64,000 bases of DNA from Fibrobacter sp. UWR4. Lineage in GTDB: Bacteria > Fibrobacterota > Fibrobacteria > Fibrobacterales > Fibrobacteraceae. The DNA lies in assembly GCF_003149045.1 (NCBI RefSeq), contig NZ_QGDU01000019.1, positions 1 to 64,000 of the forward strand, read 5' to 3'. Numbering within the stretch: the first letter of the stretch is position 1; each line of letters opens with the position of its first letter. Shown here one piece after another: positions 408-14,702 of the stretch. The position numbers were made by a program, and so were the translations under genes. The notes under the pieces were generated by a model, which had not been told where the DNA came from, ran no database searches, and worked only from the letters and a program-made list of their open reading frames with translations.

Positions 408-1871
408 TTACAGTGCTACGCTGGGCATGACGCCCAGGGCCAGGAGCACGAGGGCTGCAACAGCAACGCCGAACTTCAGCAGATAGCTGAAGGGTGCGCT
501 CTGGGCGCAGCAGCACTTGATTTCGCATTCACACTTTGCCGGGGCAAAGAGGACGAAGGCCACGCGCAGGTAGTAGACGGCTGCCACCAGGGACAGAGCG
601 AATGCTACAGCGGCGAGCCAGCCGAGGCCACCAGCCATTGCTTCGGAGAACAGGCTGAACTTGGCCAGGAAACCTGCTGCAGGCGGAAGGCCGGCAAGGC
701 TTGCCAGGCAAACTGCAGTACCCAGGGCAACGAAGGGACGCTTGCGACCGCGGCCGCGGAGGTCGTCCAGGGTTTCGTTGCGGTCGTCACGGCCTGCCAG
801 GTAGGCAACACCAGTGAGAGCGCCAGCGGAACCGATTGCATAGGTCAGCAGGAAGTAGAACATGGAGCTCATCTGGACGGTGCCCTGTTCCACGAATGCG
901 GGGAGCAGGAGGCCGATCACGATGAAGCCAGCGTTCATCACTGCAGAGTAAGCCAGGATGCGGCGGATGGACTTCTGAGCGAGACCACCAAATGCACCGT
1001 AGACCATGGAAAGCAGGGAGACGATGACAACCACGTAGTACAGAGCCTTGGGCTGAGCGCCAAAGGTTGCGGGTTCGGAAAGATTCCAGACAGCCACGCC
1101 AGTCTTTGCGGCGAGAGTGCCGAGCCAGACGGAAGCGAGAGCGGCAAGAGCGCCGACCTTAACGACGGCAGCCATGAAGCCGGTCACTGCAACGGAAGCA
1201 CCGGTGTAGACGTCAGCCACCCAGAAGTGGACAGGAGCAGCACCAGCCTTGAAGAGCAGGCCAATCACGGTGAGGAAGGAACCGATTGCGAACAGGGATT
1301 CGCGACCTTCCAGGATCTTTGCGCCGAAGTGGGTAGAACCTGTTGCACCGTAGACCAGGACCACACCGTAGAGGAAGAGGGCGCTGAAGATGGAGCCGGA
1401 AACGAAGTACTTGAAAGCACCTTCGTTTGCGTTCACATCCTTGCGGCGGATTGCAACCAGGGCGTAAATCGGGAAGCTAGCCAGTTCCATACCGAGGAAC
1501 AGGGCCAGGTAATCCACAGCCTGGGTCATGAGGGCTGCGCCACAGGTAGCGAGCATCAGGAGGGCGTAAGCTTCGCCACCCTTGAACTTTTCATGACCGA
1601 GGGTCCACTGGACACCAGCAATGCCGAGGAAACCGCAGAAGAGGACCGCAATGCCCAGGAGGCGGCGAACCGGATCCATGGCGTACAGACCAAAAGCGGT
1701 ATCGGTAGAAACCAGGGCGTAGGAACCGATGGCCAGGAGAACGAAAGCGGAAGCGATCCAGGGAAGAACCTTATGCTTGTTTTCGTCCTTGAGGAACGGT
1801 TCAGTTGCCAAGGAGATGAGGGCGCCAACGGCGACCAGGATAACCGGCAGAAGAATCATAATGGTATTCAT
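408..1871 (-). CDS. nuoN: NADH-quinone oxidoreductase subunit N
   Basis: Antiporter-like proton-pumping membrane subunit of complex I, 487 aa, the usual length. The protein is almost entirely hydrophobic helices and keeps the central signature of the family (KAGAAPVHFWVADVY, then VVKVGALAAL), whose lysines are thought to carry protons. It is the last gene of the operon, and its ATG overlaps the nuoM stop as TAATG. The C-terminus has an unusual Cys-rich patch (CECEIKCCC) before the last helix, which I cannot interpret. Confidence 0.96.
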   Translation of the reverse strand: MNTIMILLPVILVAVGALISLATEPFLKDENKHKVLPWIASAFVLLAIGSYALVSTDTAFGLYAMDPVRRLLGIAVLFCGFLGIAGVQWTLGHEKFKGGEAYALLMLATCGAALMTQAVDYLALFLGMELASFPIYALVAIRRKDVNANEGAFKYFVSGSIFSALFLYGVVLVYGATGSTHFGAKILEGRESLFAIGSFLTVIGLLFKAGAAPVHFWVADVYTGASVAVTGFMAAVVKVGALAALASVWLGTLAAKTGVAVWNLSEPATFGAQPKALYYVVVIVSLLSMVYGAFGGLAQKSIRRILAYSAVMNAGFIVIGLLLPAFVEQGTVQMSSMFYFLLTYAIGSAGALTGVAYLAGRDDRNETLDDLRGRGRKRPFVALGTAVCLASLAGLPPAAGFLAKFSLFSEAMAGGLGWLAAVAFALSLVAAVYYLRVAFVLFAPAKCECEIKCCCAQSAPFSYLLKFGVAVAALVLLALGVMPSVAL

Positions 1872-3556
1872 TAGTTGTTACCTCCTTCAGCAGCATTCAT
1901 TTCTTTCAGCTGAGCGATCAGGGAAGCGCGTTCCTCATCGCTGAAGCCGTTTGCCTTCAGGTTTTCGTCCAGCTGCTTGAAGTCATCTTCGGTCATGGGC
2001 TGAGCCACGTCTTCCACACCTTCTTCCGGTGCGGCTTCTTCAGCAACAGCTTCAACCTTGGCGGTTTCTGCTGCAGGAGCTTCTTCCTTCACCACTTCTG
2101 CGGGAGCCTTCATCTTTTCGATGGTTTCTTCGGAGAGGAGGTTATAGGAGTTGGAGGTCACGAAGGACGGGTGGATACCAAAGACCAGGAGAAGGACAGC
2201 CAGGATGCCGATGGAAGAACCTTCCAGGGCGGTCATGCGAGGACCTTCGACATATTCGCTCTGAGCCTTGCCGAAGATCACCTTCTGGACAAAGCGGAGC
2301 ATGTAAGCAGCGGAAAGGATGATGCAGAGACCTGCGACGATTGCAGGAACAGGGCCGATGAGCCACAGGGAAACGAGAACGTTGAATTCACCGATAAAGC
2401 CTGCGGTACCAGGAACAGCCAGGGCCATGACAGCCACAAAGCCGAACAGGGTGCCGAACACGGGAGTCTTGGTTGCAAGAGCGCCCATCTTGTCCAGTTC
2501 GCGAGTACCGGTGTAACGTTCTGCAATACCCATCAGGAAGAACTGGGCGCCAGCGGAAAGACCGTGAGCAACCAGGAGGATCAGCACTGCGGGGAACATG
2601 GTATCGGTAATGGTAAAGAGGCCAGCAACAGCAAGGCCGAGATGACCCATGGAGCTGAAGGCCAGGAGCTTCTTGGCATCCTTTGCGCGGAGAGCCATGA
2701 GAGCGCCATAGACAGCAGTCACGAGACCGAGAACCATCATGGGATTTGCGATATCCATGGTGCGTTCCGGGAAGAGCAGGATTACCCAGTAAAGCATGCC
2801 GAATACGCCAGCCTTACTCATTGCACCGGTAAGGATTGCAGAGAGAGGAGCCGGAGCTTCAGCATAGGAAATTGCCTGCCAGCCGTGGAACGGGAAAATC
2901 GGGGTCTTCACCAGGAAAGCAAGGAGGAAGCTGACCACGATAGTCATCTGGAGAGCGGGATCCATGGTATGGAAGGCGCTTGCCAGAGAAATGGGCAGTG
3001 CGTTGTCTGCGATAGTGAGCATGTACCACAGGGCCACCATCATAGGAGCGGAACCTACGAGAGTGTAGATGGCAAATGTCATTGCAGCCTTGGCCTTTTC
3101 CTTACCGCCGAAACCTGCGATGAGGATTGCAGCGGGAATCACCATTGCTTCGAAGAAGAAGAAGAAGAGAACAGCATCACCGGCAAGGAAGGTACCGTTC
3201 ATGGAGCCCATCAAGGCGAAGATGCCGATGGCGAAGTTGCGGTAGTTCTTGCAGGTAGTGTTGCGGGCAGTAATCAAGGCGACCAGGGAGAGTGCCGTGG
3301 AGAGGAGCACCATCCAGCCACCGAAGCTGCCGTTATAGAGGAAGTAGTAGACAGGGCCCTTTGCGCCAGGGAGCTTGAACCATTCTACGGGATCCGTAGC
3401 CTGGTTGCCAGAGACGAGCAGAGCAACAGACATCACTACGAAAGCGATGCCGAAGAGGAAGGCCATGCGAGAGGAAGACTTAGGATCTTCCTTGGAAGTT
3501 GCAACCATGAGGATAGCTGCAACAAACGGGGCCAAGACGAGGAGATGGAGAAGCAT
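1871..3556 (-). CDS. nuoM: NADH-quinone oxidoreductase subunit M
   Basis: Proton-pumping antiporter-like subunit of complex I, 561 aa. The family core is clear (KTPIFPFHGWQAISYAEAP and GAMSKAGVFGML). It is longer than typical NuoM: after the last helix, roughly the final 90 residues form a soluble Ala/Glu-rich acidic tail (EEAPAAETAKVEAVAEEAAP) ending in a short helical segment (FSDEERASLIAQLKEM). The tail would lie at the cytoplasmic or periplasmic face and is not part of the conserved subunit. The start is translationally coupled to nuoL (TAATG). Confidence 0.96.
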   Translation of the reverse strand: MLLHLLVLAPFVAAILMVATSKEDPKSSSRMAFLFGIAFVVMSVALLVSGNQATDPVEWFKLPGAKGPVYYFLYNGSFGGWMVLLSTALSLVALITARNTTCKNYRNFAIGIFALMGSMNGTFLAGDAVLFFFFFEAMVIPAAILIAGFGGKEKAKAAMTFAIYTLVGSAPMMVALWYMLTIADNALPISLASAFHTMDPALQMTIVVSFLLAFLVKTPIFPFHGWQAISYAEAPAPLSAILTGAMSKAGVFGMLYWVILLFPERTMDIANPMMVLGLVTAVYGALMALRAKDAKKLLAFSSMGHLGLAVAGLFTITDTMFPAVLILLVAHGLSAGAQFFLMGIAERYTGTRELDKMGALATKTPVFGTLFGFVAVMALAVPGTAGFIGEFNVLVSLWLIGPVPAIVAGLCIILSAAYMLRFVQKVIFGKAQSEYVEGPRMTALEGSSIGILAVLLLVFGIHPSFVTSNSYNLLSEETIEKMKAPAEVVKEEAPAAETAKVEAVAEEAAPEEGVEDVAQPMTEDDFKQLDENLKANGFSDEERASLIAQLKEMNAAEGGNN

Positions 3557-5508
3557 TAGATCAAACCTCCAGTCAGAAGAACAACAAGTACAAGGGCTGC
3601 CACGCCAGCGATGCTAAGAGCAAGCTGCAGACGGACCTTGCGTACCTGGAAGGATGCGGCACCATCACCCAGGATCAGGGTAATGTTGGCAACCAGCCAC
3701 TGTGCGAACTGCACCAGCTTATCCACGCAGTTGTCGACAATCCAGGCGATCACATTGGTAAGGCCAATGAACCAGCCGTGAATAATGTCGAAGAGGAAGG
3801 TCCAAGTTGCCTTGCCACCTTCGGGGCGAGTGCTCTTGGTAGCAGTGGGAACCTTCTTGAATGCGAAGTAAGCAATGACGATACCCACCAGAGCGGCGAG
3901 AGTACCGAGAGCGGCAAACATCATGGGGTTCACGTGAGCGGCGGAATGAGCCACGGCGTTCTGTGCTTCACCCACAACCGGTGCGAGAGCATGTTCGAAA
4001 GTGTTGAGACCCAGGGATTCAGCCCAGAGGTAACCAGTACCAACTGCGCCAGCAGCGAGGATCACCATCGGAATCAGCATGCAAGCCGGAGCTTCGTGAA
4101 TATGAGCTTCGCTTTCCTTGGAACCACGGTATTCACCGAAGAAGGTCATGATAATCAAGCGAGTCATATAGACAGCGGTAATCACTGCGGTGAGGAGGCC
4201 AACTGCATAGAATGCAGGACCCATAGGACCGCTCATGTACAGCTTTTCAAGAATGAGGTCCTTGGACCAGAAACCTGCAAAGCCCGGGATACCGATAATG
4301 GCAGCGAAAGCAAGCAGCATGACGCCGGCGGTAACGGGCACCTTCTTGGCCAGGCCACCCATCTTGCGCATATCCTGTTCACCAGCCAGAGCGTGAATCA
4401 CAGCACCGGCACCGAGGAACAGAGCGGCCTTGAAGAAGGCGTGGGTGAAGACGTGGAAGATGGAAGCATCGAAAGCAGCCACACCTGCAGCCATGAACAT
4501 GTAGCCCAGCTGAGAGATGGTAGAGTATGCAAGCACCTTCTTGATGTCGTTCTGGAAAAGGCCAGAAACTGCAGCCCAGAAAGCAGTCAGGGCACCAACG
4601 ATAGTGATGATGTCCAGGACCACCGGCAGAGCGGCGAACATGGTAGAAAGACGAGCAAGCAGGTAGACGCCAGAAGTCACCATGGTTGCAGCATGGATCA
4701 AGGCGGAAACCGGGGTCGGACCAGCCATTGCATCGGGCAACCAAGTGAGAAGAGGAATCTGAGCGGACTTACCGGTGCAGCCGACGAAGAAGCAGATACC
4801 GGCAGCGGTGAGAGCCGGCATGATGATAGCAATCTGACCACCGGCAATTGCAGCCTTGAGGAAGCTCAGCAGGGAGTCATACTGAAGGATGGAATTGGAC
4901 TGAGCAACGTTCAGGCCCAGGAAGATGAGGATCAGCATACCCATGAGGAAGCCGATATCACCAACGCGGTTCACGATGAAAGCCTTGTTAGCAGCCTTGC
5001 AGTTGTCCTTGTCGTGGTTCCAGAAACCGATCAGCAGGTAGGAGCAGAGTCCTACGCCTTCCCAACCGAAGAAGGTAAGCATGAGGTTGTCGGAAAGGAC
5101 CAACACGATCATGCTGAAGAGGAACAGGTTGATATAGGAGAAGAAGCGGGCAAAACCGCGGTCACCGTGCATGTAGCCGATGGAGTAAAGGGCGATCAGA
5201 GAACCGATGCCGGTTACGAACAGCAACATAATGCGGGACAGGTTGTCAAACAGGAAGCCGAAATTCACGTTGAGGAACGAGAGATCGATCCAGTTGCACA
5301 ACACGCTGCGGATGCCTTCTTCGGGCATATTCAGAGAGAGGACCACAACACTTGCGAAAGCCAGTGCGGGGAACAGCACAGCCAGTGCGCCCACCAGACC
5401 TTCAGAAGGGCCCTTCTTGCTGCCGGAAGATGCTACGGCAATGATGCCGAGCAGGATCGTGCCGATCAGCGGGAAAAGCGGAATGAACCAAAGCGGTAAA
5501 TTTGTCAT
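3556..5508 (-). CDS. nuoL: NADH-quinone oxidoreductase subunit L
   Basis: Largest antiporter-like membrane subunit of complex I, 650 aa, about 14-16 predicted helices plus the C-terminal lateral helix region typical of NuoL. Conserved family patches are visible: GWEGVGLCSYLLIGFW around residue 150, KSAQIPLLTWLPDAM, and HAATMVTSGVYLLARL. It is separated from nuoK by only 3 bases and overlaps nuoM by 1, so it is cotranscribed and probably translationally coupled. Confidence 0.97.
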   Translation of the reverse strand: MTNLPLWFIPLFPLIGTILLGIIAVASSGSKKGPSEGLVGALAVLFPALAFASVVVLSLNMPEEGIRSVLCNWIDLSFLNVNFGFLFDNLSRIMLLFVTGIGSLIALYSIGYMHGDRGFARFFSYINLFLFSMIVLVLSDNLMLTFFGWEGVGLCSYLLIGFWNHDKDNCKAANKAFIVNRVGDIGFLMGMLILIFLGLNVAQSNSILQYDSLLSFLKAAIAGGQIAIIMPALTAAGICFFVGCTGKSAQIPLLTWLPDAMAGPTPVSALIHAATMVTSGVYLLARLSTMFAALPVVLDIITIVGALTAFWAAVSGLFQNDIKKVLAYSTISQLGYMFMAAGVAAFDASIFHVFTHAFFKAALFLGAGAVIHALAGEQDMRKMGGLAKKVPVTAGVMLLAFAAIIGIPGFAGFWSKDLILEKLYMSGPMGPAFYAVGLLTAVITAVYMTRLIIMTFFGEYRGSKESEAHIHEAPACMLIPMVILAAGAVGTGYLWAESLGLNTFEHALAPVVGEAQNAVAHSAAHVNPMMFAALGTLAALVGIVIAYFAFKKVPTATKSTRPEGGKATWTFLFDIIHGWFIGLTNVIAWIVDNCVDKLVQFAQWLVANITLILGDGAASFQVRKVRLQLALSIAGVAALVLVVLLTGGLI

Positions 5509-5511
5509 GGC

Positions 5512-5826
5512 TTACCCCTTCATGTTAGTGAAAGAGTCAGAGTCAACACTTTCACGGTTACGGAAAATCAGGATCACCAGAGCAAGGCCAACGCAAGCTT
5601 CTGCGGCAGCCACAGCGATAGTGAACAGCGGAACGATCTGACCTGCGGCACTCAATTCAGCAGGCAGAGTCTTTGCAAAGCCAACCATGGACAGGTTCAC
5701 GGCGTTAAGGGCGAGTTCAACACCCATCAGCACGAAGAAGATGTTACGGCGGGCAATTGCAACAACCAGGCCGATGGTGAAAAGCACCAGGGCGAGGATC
5801 TGAATGTACATAGCTTGGAGTTCCAT
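5512..5826 (-). CDS. nuoK: NADH-quinone oxidoreductase subunit K
   Basis: Small three-helix membrane subunit of complex I (104 aa, MnhC/NuoK family). The two membrane-embedded glutamates that matter for proton transfer are present as E37 (in LMGVELALNAVNL) and E76 (in AAAEACVGLAL). TAATG overlap with nuoJ upstream, and 3 bases to nuoL downstream. Confidence 0.96.
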   Translation of the reverse strand: MELQAMYIQILALVLFTIGLVVAIARRNIFFVLMGVELALNAVNLSMVGFAKTLPAELSAAGQIVPLFTIAVAAAEACVGLALVILIFRNRESVDSDSFTNMKG

Positions 5827-6362
5827 TATTTACCCTCCTTTTCAGACACTTCAGAACCCAGGCGCTTCTTAGCCATGAGAACTGCAGCAGCCATAGAAGA
5901 CAGAAGCAACAGACCGAGAACTTCGAACAGGACGAAGTAACCGGGGCCGTTCTGAGCCATGTTGAACAAGGTTTCGGAAGTGAACTTCACGCTGCCACGG
6001 ATAGTCGTTGCGTCGAAAGCGAGAGGTGCACGAACCAGGACGAAACCAACTAGGCCACAAAGAACAACAACTGCGGGAACCACAAAGAGGGAAACCTTGT
6101 CGAAGCGCGGGGTGTTGTTATCCTTGCCAGCGTTCAGCACCATGATCACGAAGGTCAGGAGCATGACGATAGCACCGGCATAGACCATGATCTGGACTAC
6201 ACCCATGAAGGGGCTGCCCAGAAGGCCGTAGATGCCAGCCATGGAAAGCATGGACAGGATGAGGGAAAGAGCACCATAGAGGGGGTGCTTGGCGAGGAGC
6301 ACGCAGATAGCGGAGCCAACTGCGATCACTGCCAGAACGATGAAATAAATCAGGGCGAGCAT
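5826..6362 (-). CDS. nuoJ: NADH-quinone oxidoreductase subunit J
   Basis: Complex I membrane subunit of 178 aa with five hydrophobic segments. The helix around residues 55-75 (GVVQIMVYAGAIVMLLTFVI) carries the family hallmark VYAGAI(V/M)VL. Position between nuoI and nuoK and a 1-base overlap at both ends agree with the standard gene order. Confidence 0.95.
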   Translation of the reverse strand: MLALIYFIVLAVIAVGSAICVLLAKHPLYGALSLILSMLSMAGIYGLLGSPFMGVVQIMVYAGAIVMLLTFVIMVLNAGKDNNTPRFDKVSLFVVPAVVVLCGLVGFVLVRAPLAFDATTIRGSVKFTSETLFNMAQNGPGYFVLFEVLGLLLLSSMAAAVLMAKKRLGSEVSEKEGK

Positions 6363-6931
6363 TATTTAACCTCCATGCCCCAGACCTTGCGGGCCTCGGC
6401 GTTCTTGGTACCGCCCGGAGCCATCTGGCTCTGTGCGTCATCGGGGTAATCCTTGGGATCCCAGTTGATGAGATCAGCCATGTGGGCCACGAATTCTTCA
6501 CGGGTACGGTGTTCAAATACGATTTCCTTGGTATCCATGCGGAGAGCATCTACCGGGCAGGCTTCTGCGCAAAGGCCGCAGAACACGCAGACCAGATGGT
6601 CGATGTCGAAACGCATGACGCGCTTTTCGATACGGGGATCATCGGACTGAGTTGCTTCGATGAAGATACAGTGAGCAGGGCAAGCAGCAGCGCACATACC
6701 GCAGGCGACGCAACGAGGGGTGCCATCGGGGCGCAGCATCAAACGATGCTTTGCACGGTAGGTCGGGAGGATTTCCGGCTGACCTTCAGGATAGGAAATG
6801 GTGGGCAGCTGTTCATAGCGGAAGAAACCGCGGGCAGCGTGCTTGAGGGTGGTCCACAGACCACGCATAGCCTCGAAAATGTAGAGGCGTTCCACCCAGT
6901 TCATGGGCTTCTGTTTGATAATACGAGCCAT
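6362..6931 (-). CDS. nuoI: NADH-quinone oxidoreductase subunit I, 2x[4Fe-4S]
   Basis: Peripheral-arm subunit carrying clusters N6a and N6b that pass electrons towards NuoB. Two complete [4Fe-4S] motifs are seen: CVACGMCAAACPAHC and CVFCGLCAEACPVDAL. At 189 aa it has the usual N-terminal amphipathic region followed by the ferredoxin fold; the C-terminus (about 40 aa after the second motif) is slightly extended. TAATG overlaps with nuoH and nuoJ. Confidence 0.97.
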   Translation of the reverse strand: MARIIKQKPMNWVERLYIFEAMRGLWTTLKHAARGFFRYEQLPTISYPEGQPEILPTYRAKHRLMLRPDGTPRCVACGMCAAACPAHCIFIEATQSDDPRIEKRVMRFDIDHLVCVFCGLCAEACPVDALRMDTKEIVFEHRTREEFVAHMADLINWDPKDYPDDAQSQMAPGGTKNAEARKVWGMEVK

Positions 6932-8286
6932 TAGTTACTACCTCCCACAAGCTTTGCAATAACTGCAGTCACAATGAGGTTCAGGATAGCGATGTTAAGA
7001 ATGATCTTCCAGCCCAGGTGCATGACGTGGTCATAGCGGAAGCGGGGCAGAGTCCAGCGAACCCAGATCCAAACCCAGCAGAACATCACGCTCTTGATCA
7101 CGAGGACCAGCAGGTGGATCACAGCAGTACCGAGAGCGGTTGCCAGGGTGTTTGCGCCACTTGCAGTGTAAGCGACTTCCGGAGTATAGAACATCCATGC
7201 GCAGATTGCTGCAGCGATGAACACGACTGCAGCGATACCGCCCACCAGGTTGTACAGCTTGTATTCCTGGAGAATGACCATCTTGTTGGACTGCTTGGAG
7301 AGAGCCAGCTTCTTGGAGTAGCGATGGACCATGTGGAGGAATGCAAGGGCCAGGAAAGCGAGAATGCCACAGAGAACGGTCAGAGAGCCGCCCATGTGAG
7401 CCTGCATGGTTTCGGTAGTCACGAACGGAACAGAGTAACCGCCAAGGAAGAGGGTTGCCACCAGGAAGGAAGCGATGCAGATATGAGCGTATTCGCCCAT
7501 ATAGAACATACCGAACTGCATTGCACCGTATTCGGTGTGGTAACCAGCAACCAGTTCCGGTTCACCTTCGGCAACGTCGAAGGGAGCACGGCCAGTTTCT
7601 GCGATAGTTGCAATGAGGAAGCAGAAGAATGCCACAGGCTGGGCCACAATGCCCCACACATGGTGTTCCTGCCAGCTGACGATGTCGGTCAGGTTGAAAG
7701 AACCTGCGAGAACCAGGAGGCCCATCATGGAAAGGCCCTGGCAGACTTCGTAACTGACGGTCATTGCAGAAGTACGAAGAGAACCCAGGTAGCTGTACTT
7801 GGACTTGGATGCCCAACCAGAAAGAACTGCACCGTAGGCAGACAGGGAGGACAGACCAAAGAGCAGCAGGATACCCACGTCGGAATCAAGGATAGAACCG
7901 CTGATCTTTACAGCCTTGCCACCCCATTCGAAGGCCATGGGGCCAAACCAGGGAATGACGCAGGGAGAAAGGAACACGATTGCAAAGGGAATAGCAGGTC
8001 CCAGATAGTAGAGGAACTTGCTAGAACCCTTGGGGGCAAACATTTCCTTGAAGAACAGCTTGGTACCGTCGCACATGTTCTGGACATAGCCGAACAGGCG
8101 GACCCTACCGAAGATGGGGAACTTGATGTAGGAACGGTTCGGTCCCTGACGGTCCTGCATAAAGCCGGCGCCACGGCGTTCCATAGGAATCAAGAGAAGG
8201 ATGTAAAGGACCGGCACGAAGCAGAAGGCGAACTTTGCGATCGTGATCAGCCATTCAACCCAGGATTTGGATTCGATAATATCCAT
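6931..8286 (-). CDS. nuoH: NADH-quinone oxidoreductase subunit H
   Basis: Membrane subunit that forms the quinone chamber with NuoB and NuoD. Family patches are visible: IPMERRGAGFMQDRQGPNR near residue 31, ETGRAPFDVAEGEPELVAGY around 232, and a closing WVRWTLPRFRYDHVMHLGWK. At 451 aa it is about 100 residues longer than most NuoH. The extra length lies between the ELVAGY region and the final WVRWTLPR motif and includes added hydrophobic segments (IAAVVFIAAAICAWMF). Overlaps nuoG by 1 base. Confidence 0.96.
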   Translation of the reverse strand: MDIIESKSWVEWLITIAKFAFCFVPVLYILLLIPMERRGAGFMQDRQGPNRSYIKFPIFGRVRLFGYVQNMCDGTKLFFKEMFAPKGSSKFLYYLGPAIPFAIVFLSPCVIPWFGPMAFEWGGKAVKISGSILDSDVGILLLFGLSSLSAYGAVLSGWASKSKYSYLGSLRTSAMTVSYEVCQGLSMMGLLVLAGSFNLTDIVSWQEHHVWGIVAQPVAFFCFLIATIAETGRAPFDVAEGEPELVAGYHTEYGAMQFGMFYMGEYAHICIASFLVATLFLGGYSVPFVTTETMQAHMGGSLTVLCGILAFLALAFLHMVHRYSKKLALSKQSNKMVILQEYKLYNLVGGIAAVVFIAAAICAWMFYTPEVAYTASGANTLATALGTAVIHLLVLVIKSVMFCWVWIWVRWTLPRFRYDHVMHLGWKIILNIAILNLIVTAVIAKLVGGSN

Positions 8287-9893
8287 TATGCGTTACCTCC
8301 TTCAAGATGAAGGCCAGTGCTCTTGATGCAATCGTATGCAAGGCCTGCGAGAGCCGGAGCGTATTCGGCAGCCTTCTTGAAAGCGTCATAGGCACAGGTG
8401 AAGGTGTTACCAGCAAGTTCAGAGAGAACTTCGTAGGCGGGCTTCAGTTCTGCATCGGGGCAGGTGGGAGCAGCGTTCAACTTCTGGAGAATGTTGAGGG
8501 AGTTCACCATAGTGCCCTGCACTTCGCTCCAATGCTTGATACCGAAAGCGAGAGTTGCCTTGCTTGCAGTTTCGTCGTTGAAAGCGGAAAGAACAATGCG
8601 GGTCGGAATCTTTTCGATGACGTCCATGGACTTGTTGCCTTCGCCAACGATGTTGTTGTTCACGCAGACCAGCACGGAGAATTCAGAAACGCGCTGAGCG
8701 AGATCCCACAGATTGTCATCCGGGAGACCCAGGAGCTTGAAGCCTGCGCGGTTAGCCATGGGGTCACCGCTCTTGGCAATGCCATCAGGTTCAGACTTGA
8801 TCTTGAGGGTACCTGCGAAGATTTCTGCGCGGTCGCCCAGGGATTCCTTCAGCATACGGAATGCAGCCAGGTCTTCGATGGTGCATTCGCCACCAGCAAC
8901 CAGGGCAACCTTACCATTCTTGATGGCGTCCTTCATGACGCTCATGCCGCCGATAGCCGGCAGACGATTCTGATTGAAAGTCTGGAAAGCGAGACGGCTG
9001 GTGTTAGAGAGCCAGCTACGGTTCACTTCCGGGTTGCAGCGAGGCATCATACGGTAGATCTTGCCATCAGCGTGATCCAGCCAGATGTTTGCACCCAGGG
9101 AGTCATCCATGGAGATGGTGGGAGTGTGGCTCAGGAGCCATACACGCTTCTGGAAACGGAAGTACTTTGCAGTCATTGCGCCAGTGGGGCACACATCGGT
9201 AACGCAAAGGTCATATTCGTGATCCAGCTTTTCGCCAGGGAATGTAGTGATGTAAGTATGGTCAGCACGGCCAGCCAGCTGCAGCTGTTCATCCTTGGCG
9301 ATGGTGCGCATGAAACGTACGCAACGGTCACACTGGACGCAACGTTCTTCGTCGAGAAGAATGCGGGGGCCGATATCCACATGCTTACCACCGCGGACCT
9401 GACCCTTACTGTCAATGAACTGGTGAGCCGGATTACCGTGGTAGTTCTTACCATATTCCGGACGCATGCGGCCTTCGTTCTGGCCAGCTTCCATGTAGTT
9501 TTCCTGCAGGGTGCATTCGCCGGCCTTGTCGCAAATGGGGCAGTCCAGCGGGTGGTTCACCAGCATGAATTCCTGGGTAGCCTTGCGAGCGTTCTTTACG
9601 CGAGCAGAGGATGCAGGAGTGTAGATCTTCATGCCCGGGGCAACAGGAGTGTAGCAGGCAATGACCAGCATACGACCGCGGGGGCCTTCCTGTTCAACGA
9701 GGCACTGACGGCAGTTACCGGAAACCGGAAGATACGGATGGTAACAGACGTGAGGAGTTTCAATCCCGACAGCCTTGAGGGCTTCGAGGAGGTTTGTGTC
9801 GCCAGGAACCATCACGGCCTTGTCATCCACGAAGATTTCCACCTTCGGGCTGTTTTCGGTCGGGAGTTTCGGCATGTTATAGAAGTTACTCAT
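8286..9893 (-). CDS. nuoG: NADH-quinone oxidoreductase subunit G (short form)
   Basis: Iron-sulfur subunit of the NADH-oxidising arm. Ligands in order: [2Fe-2S] C50, C61, C64, C80; His-ligated [4Fe-4S] H114, C118, C121, C127; a further [4Fe-4S] C184, C187, C190, C234. At 535 aa it is much shorter than the roughly 700-900 aa forms: only part of the molybdopterin-oxidoreductase-like domain follows the cluster domain, and no extra N7-type Cys motif is seen. Short NuoG forms exist in other bacteria, so I read it as intact. The stop lies next to nuoH (TAATG). Confidence 0.94.
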   Translation of the reverse strand: MSNFYNMPKLPTENSPKVEIFVDDKAVMVPGDTNLLEALKAVGIETPHVCYHPYLPVSGNCRQCLVEQEGPRGRMLVIACYTPVAPGMKIYTPASSARVKNARKATQEFMLVNHPLDCPICDKAGECTLQENYMEAGQNEGRMRPEYGKNYHGNPAHQFIDSKGQVRGGKHVDIGPRILLDEERCVQCDRCVRFMRTIAKDEQLQLAGRADHTYITTFPGEKLDHEYDLCVTDVCPTGAMTAKYFRFQKRVWLLSHTPTISMDDSLGANIWLDHADGKIYRMMPRCNPEVNRSWLSNTSRLAFQTFNQNRLPAIGGMSVMKDAIKNGKVALVAGGECTIEDLAAFRMLKESLGDRAEIFAGTLKIKSEPDGIAKSGDPMANRAGFKLLGLPDDNLWDLAQRVSEFSVLVCVNNNIVGEGNKSMDVIEKIPTRIVLSAFNDETASKATLAFGIKHWSEVQGTMVNSLNILQKLNAAPTCPDAELKPAYEVLSELAGNTFTCAYDAFKKAAEYAPALAGLAYDCIKSTGLHLEGGNA

Positions 9894-9899
9894 AATTTA

Positions 9900-11207
9900 T
9901 TACCAGAAGATTCCAGGACGATAAGTTTCTTGTACACGGGGCTTTGCGTGATCCGGATTCTTTGCGATGTATTCGTCAAAGTCAGCACGGAACTTGGCAC
10001 TGTAAGCACCAACCGGGCCACCCAAGGAAATGGACAGCGGGCAAATGGTAACACCACCGAAACCACCACAGAGGCTCTGCATCAGTTCCACATCGCCGTC
10101 ATGACCGTTGCCAGCAACGATCTGGTTCAAAATGCGGTGCAAAAGACCGGTACCTTCGCGGCAAGGAGTGCACTGGCCGCAAGATTCGTGGCTGTAGAAG
10201 TTACCCAGAACGTTCAACAAATCCACCATGTTGTGGGTGTCGTTGATGACGATCATAGCACCGGAACCGAACATAGTCTTCATGGAGGCCAAACATTCGT
10301 AGTCCATGGTGGCAACTGCAGCTTCTTCGGCAGTCAGCGGAGCACAAGAGGAACCGCCCGGCAGCACAGCCTTCAGCTTGCCGCCCACCACGCCACCGGC
10401 GTATTCGTTGATCATGGTCATCATGGGAGTTCCGAGAGGAGCTTCGTAAACGCCCGGGTTCTTTACGTCACCAGAAATGCAGAACACCTTGGTACCGCCT
10501 GCACGGGGAGTACCCATCTTGGCGTATTCGCTAGGATCGTGCTTGAGGATCCAGGGGAGAGCCATAATGGTTTCCACGTTGTTCACGCAGGTGGGGCTCT
10601 TCCAGGCACCGCTAACAGCCGGGAAAGGCGGCTTCAGGCGGGGCTGACCCTTCTGGCCTTCGAGAGAGTTAATGAGTGCGGTTTCTTCACCGCAAATGTA
10701 GGCGCCAGCGCCACGGTGTACGAAGATATCGAAGCAGAACTTGGTTCCGCAGATATTTTCGCCAAGGTAGCCGGCGGCATAAGCCTGGTTCAGAGCCTTG
10801 TTGAGGCTTTCGATGCAGGGCAGGAATTCGCCACGGCAGTAGATGTAAGCTGCGCGGGAACCCAGAGCCCAAGCGGCGATGATAAGACCTTCGATCAAGC
10901 GATGAGGATCTTCCAGCATGAGGAAGTGATCCTTGAAGGTACCGCCTTCGCCTTCGTCAGCGTTCACCACGATGTAAACCGGCTTGCCGGTACCGCGGGG
11001 AACGAAGCTCCACTTCATACCAGTGGGGAAGCCTGCACCGCCACGGCCACGCAGATTGGAGCGCTGGACGTAGTCGATGAGCTCGAACTGGCTCATGTTG
11101 AACAGACGTTCGGAAATATTTTCGTAGCCGCCCAGCTTCTTGTAGACTTCAATGTCCTGGGCGCCCTTGCCGAAGTTTTCAGTACAAACTTTTACGCATT
11201 CTGCCAT
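9900..11207 (-). CDS. nuoF: NADH-quinone oxidoreductase subunit F
   Basis: Flavoprotein that oxidises NADH with FMN and passes electrons to an N3-type [4Fe-4S] cluster. Visible motifs: LRGRGGAGFPTGMKW near residue 52 (dinucleotide site), NADEGEGGTFKDHFLM (FMN/NADH region), and the cluster motif ESCGQCTPCREGTGLL followed by the distal Cys in GGVTICPLS. 435 aa, typical. Spaced 2 bases from nuoE and 6 from nuoG. Confidence 0.97.
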   Translation of the reverse strand: MAECVKVCTENFGKGAQDIEVYKKLGGYENISERLFNMSQFELIDYVQRSNLRGRGGAGFPTGMKWSFVPRGTGKPVYIVVNADEGEGGTFKDHFLMLEDPHRLIEGLIIAAWALGSRAAYIYCRGEFLPCIESLNKALNQAYAAGYLGENICGTKFCFDIFVHRGAGAYICGEETALINSLEGQKGQPRLKPPFPAVSGAWKSPTCVNNVETIMALPWILKHDPSEYAKMGTPRAGGTKVFCISGDVKNPGVYEAPLGTPMMTMINEYAGGVVGGKLKAVLPGGSSCAPLTAEEAAVATMDYECLASMKTMFGSGAMIVINDTHNMVDLLNVLGNFYSHESCGQCTPCREGTGLLHRILNQIVAGNGHDGDVELMQSLCGGFGGVTICPLSISLGGPVGAYSAKFRADFDEYIAKNPDHAKPRVQETYRPGIFW

Positions 11208-11209
11208 AA

Positions 11210-12271
11210 TTATACCGCCTTTTCTTCCGGAGCCGGCTTCTGAGTGGTAACAGCAACTGCGGAGGGCTTGGCAACGCGTTCGCCGGAGGTTGCGATCATG
11301 CGATATTCATCGCCGACCTTACCTGCTGCGTCCACAAAAGCCTTGTCCTTGACGCCGGGTTCGCCAACAGCGACCCAATCATTGCCAGACTTCTTTTCGA
11401 CGACGATCTTAGTGAATTCCGGAGCGCCCTTCCAAGTGAGGGTAGCGCCAGTTTCGTCTGCTTCGGCCTTAACGCAAAGAACCGGAGAAGGAGGAGCGTA
11501 GTCAGCGACCTGAGGCTTTGCAGTTGCACCAGGAGCACCCGGGTGACCGCAGTGCCCCTTCACAACACCGCCCAGCACGTCGTGCTTGGGAACATTGTTT
11601 GCGTGGGCCTTGCACCAGTCGATGATGCGATCGATGGAAGCTTCGGTCAGAGTAGTGCCGCGCTTCATCTTCAGTTCGCCATTCACTACGTCAGTTGCGA
11701 AGTCATCGTTCACCAGCATCATGGGGCCGTTGCCGCAGGAGCCCAGGCATTCGACCTGGAGGATGGTGAACATGCCATCGGGAGTGGTTTCGCCGGACTT
11801 GATGCCCAGCTTGTTTTCCACGTACTTGATCAGGGGCTGAGCGCCCTTGATTGCGCAGCTGATGTTACGGCAGAACTGCAGCAGGAACTTGCCCTTGGGG
11901 GCGTGATTGTACATGGTGTAGAAAGTAGCAACGCCAAGAGCGTGAGCAGGAGCGCAACCGCAGACGTTTGCAGCCCAGCGGATACCTTCGGTGGGAACCC
12001 AACCGAAAACGCCCTGAACCAACCAAAGCACTTCAAGAAGAGCGCCCTGGCCTTCGGGATAACGGCTCAGGAGATCGGCACAACGTTCCTTGATTTCGGG
12101 AGCGTTCAGCTTGTCCAGCACTTCCTTGGTGGGAGGCTGGGGCTGAGCCTTGTGTACATGGCCAAAAGTTTCAGCCGGATCTGCAGCATAGCCAATGGGC
12201 TGCTGCGGGCGATCGAACTTCAGGTTGTTGTTGGCAACGACCTGAACGGCACCTTCAATATGTTCTCTCAT
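11210..12271 (-). CDS. nuoE: NADH-quinone oxidoreductase subunit E with Fn3-like tail
   Basis: Thioredoxin-fold [2Fe-2S] subunit (cluster N1a) paired with NuoF. Cluster ligands C134, C139, C175, C179 are in place. NuoE is normally about 160-180 aa; here the protein has 353. Residues 1-45 form an N-terminal extension, and from about 262 to 342 there is an extra domain with the look of a fibronectin type III or similar beta-sandwich (repeating beta-strand pattern, ATLTWKGAPEFTKIVVEKK, EYRMIATSG), joined by a Pro/Ala linker. The added domain is cytoplasmic by location. The start overlaps the nuoD stop as ATGA. Confidence 0.93.
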   Translation of the reverse strand: MREHIEGAVQVVANNNLKFDRPQQPIGYAADPAETFGHVHKAQPQPPTKEVLDKLNAPEIKERCADLLSRYPEGQGALLEVLWLVQGVFGWVPTEGIRWAANVCGCAPAHALGVATFYTMYNHAPKGKFLLQFCRNISCAIKGAQPLIKYVENKLGIKSGETTPDGMFTILQVECLGSCGNGPMMLVNDDFATDVVNGELKMKRGTTLTEASIDRIIDWCKAHANNVPKHDVLGGVVKGHCGHPGAPGATAKPQVADYAPPSPVLCVKAEADETGATLTWKGAPEFTKIVVEKKSGNDWVAVGEPGVKDKAFVDAAGKVGDEYRMIATSGERVAKPSAVAVTTQKPAPEEKAV

Positions 12272-13461
12272 CGGTCGAGTTCTCCTGCAATCATGTTGAG
12301 GCCAGGCAGAGTAGCCATGGAGTCAGCAAGGGTAAGGCCTTCAACCAGGTAGTTGAAAGCAGAAACGTGAGCGAGGCTCGGGGAACGAACCTTGATACGG
12401 TACGGGTGACCGGAACCATCGGAAACGATGGTGAAGCCCAGTTCGCCGTTTGCGCATTCGGTACCGCAGTAGAATTCGCCTTCCGGTACGCGGATGCCTT
12501 CGTAGACGCTCTTGAAGCGGCCTATGAGGCCTTCCATATCCTGATAGGCCATCTTGTGGGACGGCACGCGGATGCGGGGGTCGACGATATCGATGGGACC
12601 CGGAGCGAGACGCTTCAGAGCCTGGCGAACGATCTTCACGGATTCTTCAATTTCAGCGAGACGAACCTGCAGACGGTCGTTTGCGTCACCATTGGTGCCA
12701 ACCACAACGTCCCAGTCGTAGGTTTCGTAATCGTAATACGGTTCATCCTTACGCAGGTCGCTTTCTACGCCGGTAGCACGGAGTACAGGGCCGGTCCAGC
12801 CGTAGCTGATTGCGTCTTCCTTGGAAATCTTGGCAACGCCAACGGTACGATCCAGGAAGATACGGTTACGATCCAAGCAAGCGTGCAGGTCCTTGAGGGC
12901 CTTTTCCACAGAGTTGCAAGCTGCGAGGACTTCGTCTTCGAAACCATTGTAAGTATCGCGATAGAGGCCACCGATACGGGCATAGCTGTTCGTCAGACGA
13001 GCGCCTGTGAGCTTTTCCCAGATCAGCATGATTTCTTCACGGGGGTTAAATGCATACATGAACGGAGTGGTACCGCCAAGGTCCTGGAATGCAGCGGCCA
13101 CGCAGATGAAGTGGTCGTTGATACGGGAAAGTTCATTCACGATAACGCGGATGACCTTGTTGCGTTCCGGGATTTCAATGCCGAACATCTTTTCTACGGT
13201 ACGGCAGAAAGCGATGTTGTTCATCATGGCAGAGCAGTAGTTCAGACGGTCGGTGTACGGGAGAGCCTGCTGCCAGGTGCCGCGTTCCACCATCTTTTCA
13301 AAGCCACGGTGCATAAAGCCGATTTCGCTGACGCCAGCAACGATGGTTTCGCCATCGAGAGCGGCAAGCAAACGTACGCAGTGGTGGGTTGCCGGATGAG
13401 TCGGGCCCACATTCAGAGCCATGAGGCTCTGCTTTTCGCCATTCGGATCTAATACGATCAT
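12268..13461 (-). CDS. nuoD: NADH-quinone oxidoreductase subunit D
   Basis: 49-kDa-type subunit lining the quinone site, 397 aa, usual length. The hallmark NVGPTHPATH near the N-terminus contains the conserved quinone-site His; the body keeps GFMHRGFEKMVE and LNYCSAMMNN, and the C-terminus ends in the typical ...ELDR. ATGA overlaps with nuoC (upstream) and nuoE (downstream). It is a separate gene, not a NuoCD fusion. Confidence 0.97.
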   Translation of the reverse strand: MIVLDPNGEKQSLMALNVGPTHPATHHCVRLLAALDGETIVAGVSEIGFMHRGFEKMVERGTWQQALPYTDRLNYCSAMMNNIAFCRTVEKMFGIEIPERNKVIRVIVNELSRINDHFICVAAAFQDLGGTTPFMYAFNPREEIMLIWEKLTGARLTNSYARIGGLYRDTYNGFEDEVLAACNSVEKALKDLHACLDRNRIFLDRTVGVAKISKEDAISYGWTGPVLRATGVESDLRKDEPYYDYETYDWDVVVGTNGDANDRLQVRLAEIEESVKIVRQALKRLAPGPIDIVDPRIRVPSHKMAYQDMEGLIGRFKSVYEGIRVPEGEFYCGTECANGELGFTIVSDGSGHPYRIKVRSPSLAHVSAFNYLVEGLTLADSMATLPGLNMIAGELDR

Positions 13462-14063
13462 GCCTTAATACTCCCTTCAAGAAAATCTTCATCAACGGGA
13501 TCCACTTCTTCGGAGCGTTCGATGACCTTGTAACCCTTGGATTCAAGGCGCTGTTCGAGAGCGGGAAGCAGGAAGTCGCTGGTAGAAAGCCACTGACGCT
13601 TATGGGCAGGATAATCCTTGCGAAGCGGGTGACCGATAAATTCAACGTGATTCAAAATACGACGCAGATCGGGGTGGCCGATGAACTTAACTCCATACTG
13701 GTCAAAGACTTCGCGTTCGAGCCAGTCGGCACTCTTGTACAGGTCGGTAACGGACTGGACCTGGAGGTCCGCTTCGCTGACCAGCACCTTAAGACGGATG
13801 CGGGCGCCAGCGACGGTCATGCTCTTGAATGCATAGGAGACCGCAAAACGAGGACCTTCATGATTGGGGTAAGTCAAGTAGTCGATACCCGCAGCGTCCA
13901 GGAGCATATCCATCTTGACGGGGGCTTCATTCTTGAGGAATTCCACGGCGGCGTGGAGATTTTCCTTGGGAACGACTACGCAAGCATCCCACTTGGCTGC
14001 CTGGTCCGGAGTTGCACCGAACTTGGCTCCAAGGAGCTCGATAATCTTATCTACAGATTCCAT
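13458..14063 (-). CDS. nuoC: NADH-quinone oxidoreductase subunit C
   Basis: 30-kDa-type peripheral subunit, 201 aa. The family signature is seen as WLEREVFDQYGVKFIGHPDL followed by FIGHPLRKDYP. It bridges NuoB/NuoD in the peripheral arm and has no cofactor. It starts 3 bases after nuoB and overlaps nuoD by 4. Confidence 0.96.
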   Translation of the reverse strand: MESVDKIIELLGAKFGATPDQAAKWDACVVVPKENLHAAVEFLKNEAPVKMDMLLDAAGIDYLTYPNHEGPRFAVSYAFKSMTVAGARIRLKVLVSEADLQVQSVTDLYKSADWLEREVFDQYGVKFIGHPDLRRILNHVEFIGHPLRKDYPAHKRQWLSTSDFLLPALEQRLESKGYKVIERSEEVDPVDEDFLEGSIKA

Positions 14064-14066
14064 TCC

Positions 14067-14702
14067 TTACTCCTTCCAGAACTGGGCTTTCTTCACCAGC
14101 ATCTGTTCCTTTTCAATCAGGAAATTCTTGGCGTCAGCGATCTTTTCGCTAGCGAGAGCCTTAGCTTCGGCCTTGGCTTCGGCAGTCTTTGCCTTGATGA
14201 GTTCCAGCTGTTCCTTGACTCGTTCGGCACGCTGCTTCATGAAGGATTCGTCCTTGATCTTGTTCTGCAGGTCGAACATGGCGTCGAAGAAAGCTTCCGG
14301 ACGGCTGGGGCAGCCACCGATATAAACGTCTACGGGGATAATGTGGTCAATGCCCGGAACAGTGCAGTAGCAGTCATAGAAACCGCCAGAGCTAGCACAA
14401 GCACCCATGGCGATGACCCACTTGGGTTCAGCCATCTGCTCGTACATACGCTTCAGGATCGGAGCCTGCTTATAAGTAATGGTGCCGGACACCAGCAGGA
14501 CGTCAGACTGACGCGGGGTAAAGCGCACGTATTCAGAACCGATACGGGACAAGTCGTAACGACCCACTTCCGTACTCATGAATTCGATTGCACAGCAAGC
14601 CGTACCATAAGGGAACGGCCACAGGGAATTGGTACGACCCCAGTTGACCAGGAAGTCAAGAGAGGAAGTAATGAAATTCGGCTTTTCTGCCTCTGTACTC
14701 AT
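14067..14702 (-). CDS. nuoB: NADH-quinone oxidoreductase subunit B with coiled-coil tail
   Basis: Carries the terminal cluster N2 that reduces quinone. Ligands C36, C37 (ACCAIEFM), C102 (GACASSGG) and C131 (GGCPSRPEA) are present. The core ends near residue 145; residues about 146-211 form a Lys/Glu/Ala-rich helix with coiled-coil character (VKEQLELIKAKTAEAKAEAK), absent from standard NuoB. It is the first gene of the operon: no nuoA is found in the 250 bases upstream. A promoter-like pair of boxes lies 27-57 bases before the ATG. Confidence 0.95.
   Translation of the reverse strand: MSTEAEKPNFITSSLDFLVNWGRTNSLWPFPYGTACCAIEFMSTEVGRYDLSRIGSEYVRFTPRQSDVLLVSGTITYKQAPILKRMYEQMAEPKWVIAMGACASSGGFYDCYCTVPGIDHIIPVDVYIGGCPSRPEAFFDAMFDLQNKIKDESFMKQRAERVKEQLELIKAKTAEAKAEAKALASEKIADAKNFLIEKEQMLVKKAQFWKE

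Follow-up and report, generated by a model that had tools for sequence, protein, structure and literature searches.

An Fn3-like domain at the C-terminus of the complex I subunit NuoE in the Fibrobacteraceae

The nuoE gene and its surroundings

The window, a 64,000-nucleotide stretch of contig NZ_QGDU01000019.1 from Fibrobacter sp. UWR4, contains a cluster of complex I genes in which nuoE is set among nuoB-C-D-E-F-G-H-I and the downstream subunits. The neighbours NuoB, C, D, F and G, plus the ferredoxin domains of NuoI, were identified by Pfam, and H and J-N were named by eye from lists of open reading frames. The features of nuoE and of the adjoining genes are the following.

8286..9893, minus strand: nuoG, short, 535 aa (open reading frame and Pfam)
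9900..11207, minus strand: nuoF, beginning 2 bases past the nuoE stop (PF01512)
11210..12271, minus strand: nuoE, complex I 24 kDa-type subunit with a C-terminal Fn3-like domain, 353 aa, ATG start
11243..11494, minus strand: Fn3-like beta-sandwich domain of NuoE, residues 260-343, 84 residues (AlphaFold2, Foldseek, VIA-align, profile)
11495..11605, minus strand: Gly/Pro/Ala-rich linker of NuoE, residues 223-259, conserved, core motif GHPGAPGA
11606..12100, minus strand: [2Fe-2S] thioredoxin-like core of NuoE plus the next strand and helix, residues 58-222 (Pfam, secondary structure)
12101..12271, minus strand: N-terminal extension of NuoE, residues 1-57 (alignment)
12268..13461, minus strand: nuoD, overlapping the nuoE start by 4 bases (Pfam)

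An earlier note on this DNA had placed NuoE at 11210-12015. The identity of the protein was upheld and its extent was not, because that interval holds only residues 86-353, which means that the start had been misplaced. The core of the protein matched PF01257 with an E-value of 8.3e-44 (149.4 bits versus a cut-off of 24.8) and scored 142.4 bits against TIGR01958, exactly at the cut-off of 142.4. The protein resembles NuoE/Nqo2/NDUFV2 (24 kDa, PF01257, TIGR01958) in its [2Fe-2S] thioredoxin-like core, its four cysteines and its position between nuoD and nuoF, but differs in the addition of an N-terminal extension, a conserved linker and the Fn3 domain. The candidate [2Fe-2S] ligands C134, C139, C175 and C179, whose role is presumed from the NuoE family, were invariant in all 15 aligned sequences. 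The first half of the N-terminal extension was kept in most of the Fibrobacteraceae sampled and was missing in locus L087 and in family f5, as judged from start codons assigned by hand.

Pfam found nothing in NuoE beyond the 2Fe-2S thioredoxin-like domain (residues 66-197). Past this domain, one more strand and helix were predicted to run to about residue 222, in agreement with the earlier proposal that the core is complete by about residue 230, and the Pro/Ala linker and beta-sandwich-like domain of about 80 residues described at that time correspond to the Gly/Pro/Ala linker (about 223-259) and to residues 260-343.

No extra gene, including any gene for a possible partner, was seen inserted in the nuo cluster among the open reading frames of the window. 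The cluster starts at nuoB (14067-14702), and nuoA does not adjoin it; two NuoA-type genes (PF00507) were found elsewhere in the same genome, on contigs C1 and C3. These distant NuoA-type genes and the divergent NuoD relatives present in many Fibrobacteraceae hint at a second Nuo-like complex. Positions 408-14702 of the window encode nuoB to nuoN. In PMC4814513, F. succinogenes S85 is given as having no electron transport chain, a statement that looks doubtful for the genus given the presence of nuoB to nuoN.

Two other readings of the locus were discarded. A 790-aa open frame in genome G164 resembled a natural NuoE-NuoF fusion, but the upstream part of this frame overlaps nuoD, which is read in a different frame, and NuoF has an open reading frame of its own. 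The NuoG open reading frames of relatives were similarly short to that of the window; compensation by the Fn3 domain for a short NuoG was not supported as such, because relatives in family f4 also have a short NuoG open reading frame (507-531 aa) and carry no Fn3 domain.

Fold and affinities of the C-terminal tail

AlphaFold2 prediction of the tail alone (residues 256-345), based on an alignment of the window with 23 of the 40 distinct locus tails, gave six strands with a mean pLDDT of 80.1 and a pTM of 0.69, so that the tail is predicted to be an ordered beta sandwich and not disordered. Foldseek returned eight matches at E ≤ 0.001, of which the top was the CtXyl5A arabinoxylanase (E 8.8e-5), followed by a C. 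thermocellum Fn3-like protein, Robo3 FN1 and titin. VIA-align of the tail to the Clostridium Fn3 structure 3mpc gave a Z of 10.7 and an rmsd of 2.5 A over 85 residues.

Sequence comparisons agreed with the predicted fold. The single NuoE protein matched FN3con in the PDB by phmmer at 0.0017, and a family-wide profile, built from the tails of the window and of 14 hand-picked loci (15 in all, start codons set by hand), matched FN3con at 5.8e-5, the Clostridium thermocellum Fn3-like protein at 4.9e-4 and titin at 0.005. By hhalign, the tail profile matched 11 Fn3 repeats from two Fibrobacterota genomes with a probability of 94%. The modeled structure and the profile matches, both well above chance, thus support an Fn3 fold for the tail, as the earlier note had suggested. 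None of the 15 tails matched the Pfam fn3 family (PF00041) at E ≤ 1; therefore the tail is classed as Fn3-like by fold and not as a PF00041 member, and automatic annotation would overlook the domain.

The matches of the window protein to solved NuoE homologues cover the core region only and stop near its end, so the tail is unusual in comparison with these homologues, in line with the earlier note. NuoE proteins of the NF009040 type (a 400-position model) also have a long C-terminal part, but the window protein scored 83 bits against this model versus a cut-off of 514, with a match to the core only.

The tail shares its fold and weak sequence similarity with the Fn3 modules of glycosidases and lyases (CtXyl5A, 5g56; C. 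thermocellum, 3mpc; YesX, 2zuy). Those modules presumably belong to exported proteins, whereas the Fn3 domain in the window sits on a cytosolic redox subunit. Because the best fold matches include glycosidase/lyase Fn3 domains, it is reasonable to infer that the tail originated by capture of an exported-type bacterial Fn3 module by a cytosolic subunit. No second copy of the tail was found in the same genome at E ≤ 10, and no protein of that genome matched Pfam fn3 over the cut-off. The tail profile also found Fn3 repeats in a C25-type peptidase of an f5 genome. A separate odd pairing was noted at L110:1464-3938 (minus strand), where a probably exported protein combines five or more Fn3 repeats with a 2[4Fe-4S] ferredoxin-like domain at its C-terminus.

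Distribution and conservation of the domain

The whole NuoE protein had matches in 144 of 167 Fibrobacterota genomes, and the tail profile in 98 of 167. In the Fibrobacteraceae (f1), the family of the window, 95 of 111 genomes matched NuoE and all 95 of these also matched the tail, as tallied from the match listings; the tail match was partial in two of them, at a contig end in G058 and split in two frames in G135. Both genomes of family f5 carried NuoE and the tail. The remaining tail match (G019) was one repeat of a large protein that contains at least five Fn3 domains. All 10 NuoE-bearing genomes of family f4 had NuoE without a tail match. In the four f4 NuoE proteins that were read (L083-L086), the C-terminal stretch is of another kind: it is conserved around LPSHYNF and GARHF and gives way to a low-complexity end. 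The tail is thus present in the closest relatives, and the NuoE-Fn3 fusion is fixed in the Fibrobacteraceae and f5 and is not the quirk of a single strain.

Sixteen Fibrobacteraceae genomes had no NuoE, and four of these were examined for NuoD and NuoF. Two (G079 and G146) had no close NuoF and kept only a divergent NuoD relative; in G149, NuoD lay at a contig end and NuoF was absent; in G046, NuoD and NuoF were present and NuoE was not found. The genomes G079, G146, G041 and G042, which were without a close NuoF and an own-type NuoD, were also without NuoE and the domain. In both g4 loci that were read (L088 and L089), nuoE lies outside the nuo cluster and the Fn3 domain is still on NuoE. The Fn3 tail therefore goes with NuoE itself and not with any neighboring gene. 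The neighbors of nuoE in these two loci, as named by eye, are a gene for a YbhN-like membrane protein and others that do not belong to nuo. Dispersal of the nuo genes is seen in genera g2 and g4, where several genomes have nuoD, nuoE and nuoF on different contigs; G043 was also noted in this respect.

Of the 50 loci returned by a contig scan, 47 belonged to Fibrobacter or its order; the other three, titled Alphaproteobacteria or Asaia, aligned over residues 15-196 or 44-196 only. A NuoE-type match was present in 188 plasmid records and in none of them covered 80% of the query, a comparison that is a weak control because the records listed were mostly from Rhizobiales. No report of a NuoE with an Fn3 domain was found among the open-licence papers searched; PMC3534657 mentions both NuoE and Fn3, but separately.

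Within the genus (47 sequences), the median pairwise dN/dS was 0.077 for the core and 0.089 for the Fn3 domain. It was higher in the N-terminal extension (0.119) and in residues 201-232 (0.146), and lowest, at 0.054, in linker residues 233-259; these values are descriptive, since sequence pairs are not independent. Within-genus values were used because family-wide dN/dS, computed after one of the family-wide rows had been removed as identical to another, was near synonymous saturation. Judged from these ratios, the Fn3 domain is under purifying selection close to that on the core. This result, along with the lack of any loss of the domain in the 95 of 95 genomes with NuoE, argues against the explanation that the tail is an inherited fusion that merely decorates the complex and has little function beyond solubility. 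That explanation is very unlikely, even though other NuoE C-terminal stretches exist and vary by lineage, such as those of the 400-position NF009040 model and of f4.

Possible roles of the domain in complex I

Few components of bioenergetic systems are as conserved as the core subunits of complex I, and it is uncommon for one of them, here NuoE, to have an additional folded domain fixed throughout a bacterial family. Conservation within the Fn3 domain was uneven: the loops of the BC/C'E/FG pole had a mean pair identity of 0.66 versus 0.40 for the other pole (21 versus 11 positions, permutation p 0.008), a comparison that assumes textbook placement of the Fn3 loops and partly reflects residues common to Fn3 domains. 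In the textbook Fn3 topology, the BC/C'E/FG pole also bears the N-terminus, and with it the linker, so that this conserved pole would be turned toward the rest of complex I.

The explanation that we favor, and regard as somewhat more probable than all others together, is that the tail is a built-in module of complex I that serves stability or assembly and not a docking site for another enzyme. The Fn3 module would have been gained at the NuoE C-terminus by the common ancestor of the Fibrobacteraceae and of a second family in the same class, and, joined to NuoE through the conserved Gly/Pro/Ala linker, would have become a permanent part of complex I. The linker most likely crosses the surface of the NADH-oxidizing module (NuoE/F/G), and we infer that the Fn3 domain packs on neighboring subunits with the pole formed by its BC, C'E and FG loops. 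Packed in this way, it may stabilize the NADH-oxidizing module or aid its assembly. It would carry no cofactor and add no electron path; no redox motif was found in the Fn3 domain.

The linker bears on this placement. Residues 228-266 had a pLDDT below 50 in the full-length monomer prediction, which had a mean pLDDT of 61.6 and was made from a shallow alignment (30 of the 47 Fibrobacter-group loci, all three others and the window, leaving out L072, which has a frame break, and near-duplicate loci). The low confidence of this monomer model in the linker would also fit a mobile, exposed Fn3 domain. In the two g4 sequences aligned, the linker is about nine residues shorter and the domain is kept, so a linker path of full length is dispensable.

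A flexible linker of this kind would also suit a docking arm, in which the Fn3 domain brings a soluble partner to the NADH-binding tip, for instance a regulator or an NAD-linked dehydrogenase, and a small metabolon results. Fn3 loops are common binding surfaces, the BC, C'E and FG loops are conserved at one pole, and, judging by their titles, many of the Fn3 domains matched by fold are partner-binding. However, no partner gene was seen in the nuo cluster, the conserved pole bears the N-terminal linker in the textbook topology and would face the complex body, and the tail is retained where nuoE stands alone beside unrelated genes. Docking of a partner enzyme or another electron donor, which had been suggested in the earlier note, has no positive support: no partner gene was seen, the domain has no redox motif and its presence tracks NuoE. 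We regard docking as rather unlikely. It is also unlikely that, in anaerobic fibre degraders, the Fn3 arm is a built-in adaptor by which soluble proteins with redox or regulatory functions are recruited to the NADH-oxidizing tip of complex I, with a module of the extracellular type put to new use in the cytosol.

The high conservation of the domain would also fit a role in contacts between complexes, either in complex I dimers or arrays or with another membrane complex. Although Fn3 modules often mediate contacts of this type, we consider this explanation quite unlikely.

A built-in structural module has a parallel in E. coli. According to PMC8357420, extensions at subunit C-termini and an insertion in NuoG brace E. 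coli complex I by enlarging subunit contacts, resulting in a threefold larger contact area between modules, and the extensions and the NuoG loop occupy the space of accessory subunits of other species. Both cases represent lineage-specific additions to peripheral-arm subunits of a few-subunit complex; those of E. coli are extended tails and an insertion loop (NuoB, NuoI, NuoF and NuoG), whereas here the addition is a whole folded domain on NuoE with putative contacts.

The tail is most likely a lineage-specific structural add-on in rumen and gut relatives of Fibrobacter and not a new electron pathway. Being deletable, it offers a concrete way to ask how the NADH module is braced or decorated in bacteria that have no accessory subunits, here cellulose-degrading anaerobes with a little-studied respiratory chain.

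The clade with the Fn3 domain carries other lineage-specific additions as well, which suits a built-in structural module better than docking, as indicated by the C-termini of NuoB, NuoC, NuoI and NuoG, for which BLAST alignments of the window reached further with f5 than with f4. It is possible that the shorter reach in f4 reflects, at least partly, divergence and not gained segments. The alignment of NuoB with more distant relatives extended no further than residues 150-168. The NuoB C-terminus (window 14067-14255) is rich in Lys, Glu and Ala and is probably a helical extension of about 60 residues. In nuoH (window 6931-8286), about 100 amino acids at about residues 288-387 are shared with f5 and were not aligned in f4 relatives; a segment of this length is unusual for a subunit as conserved as NuoH.
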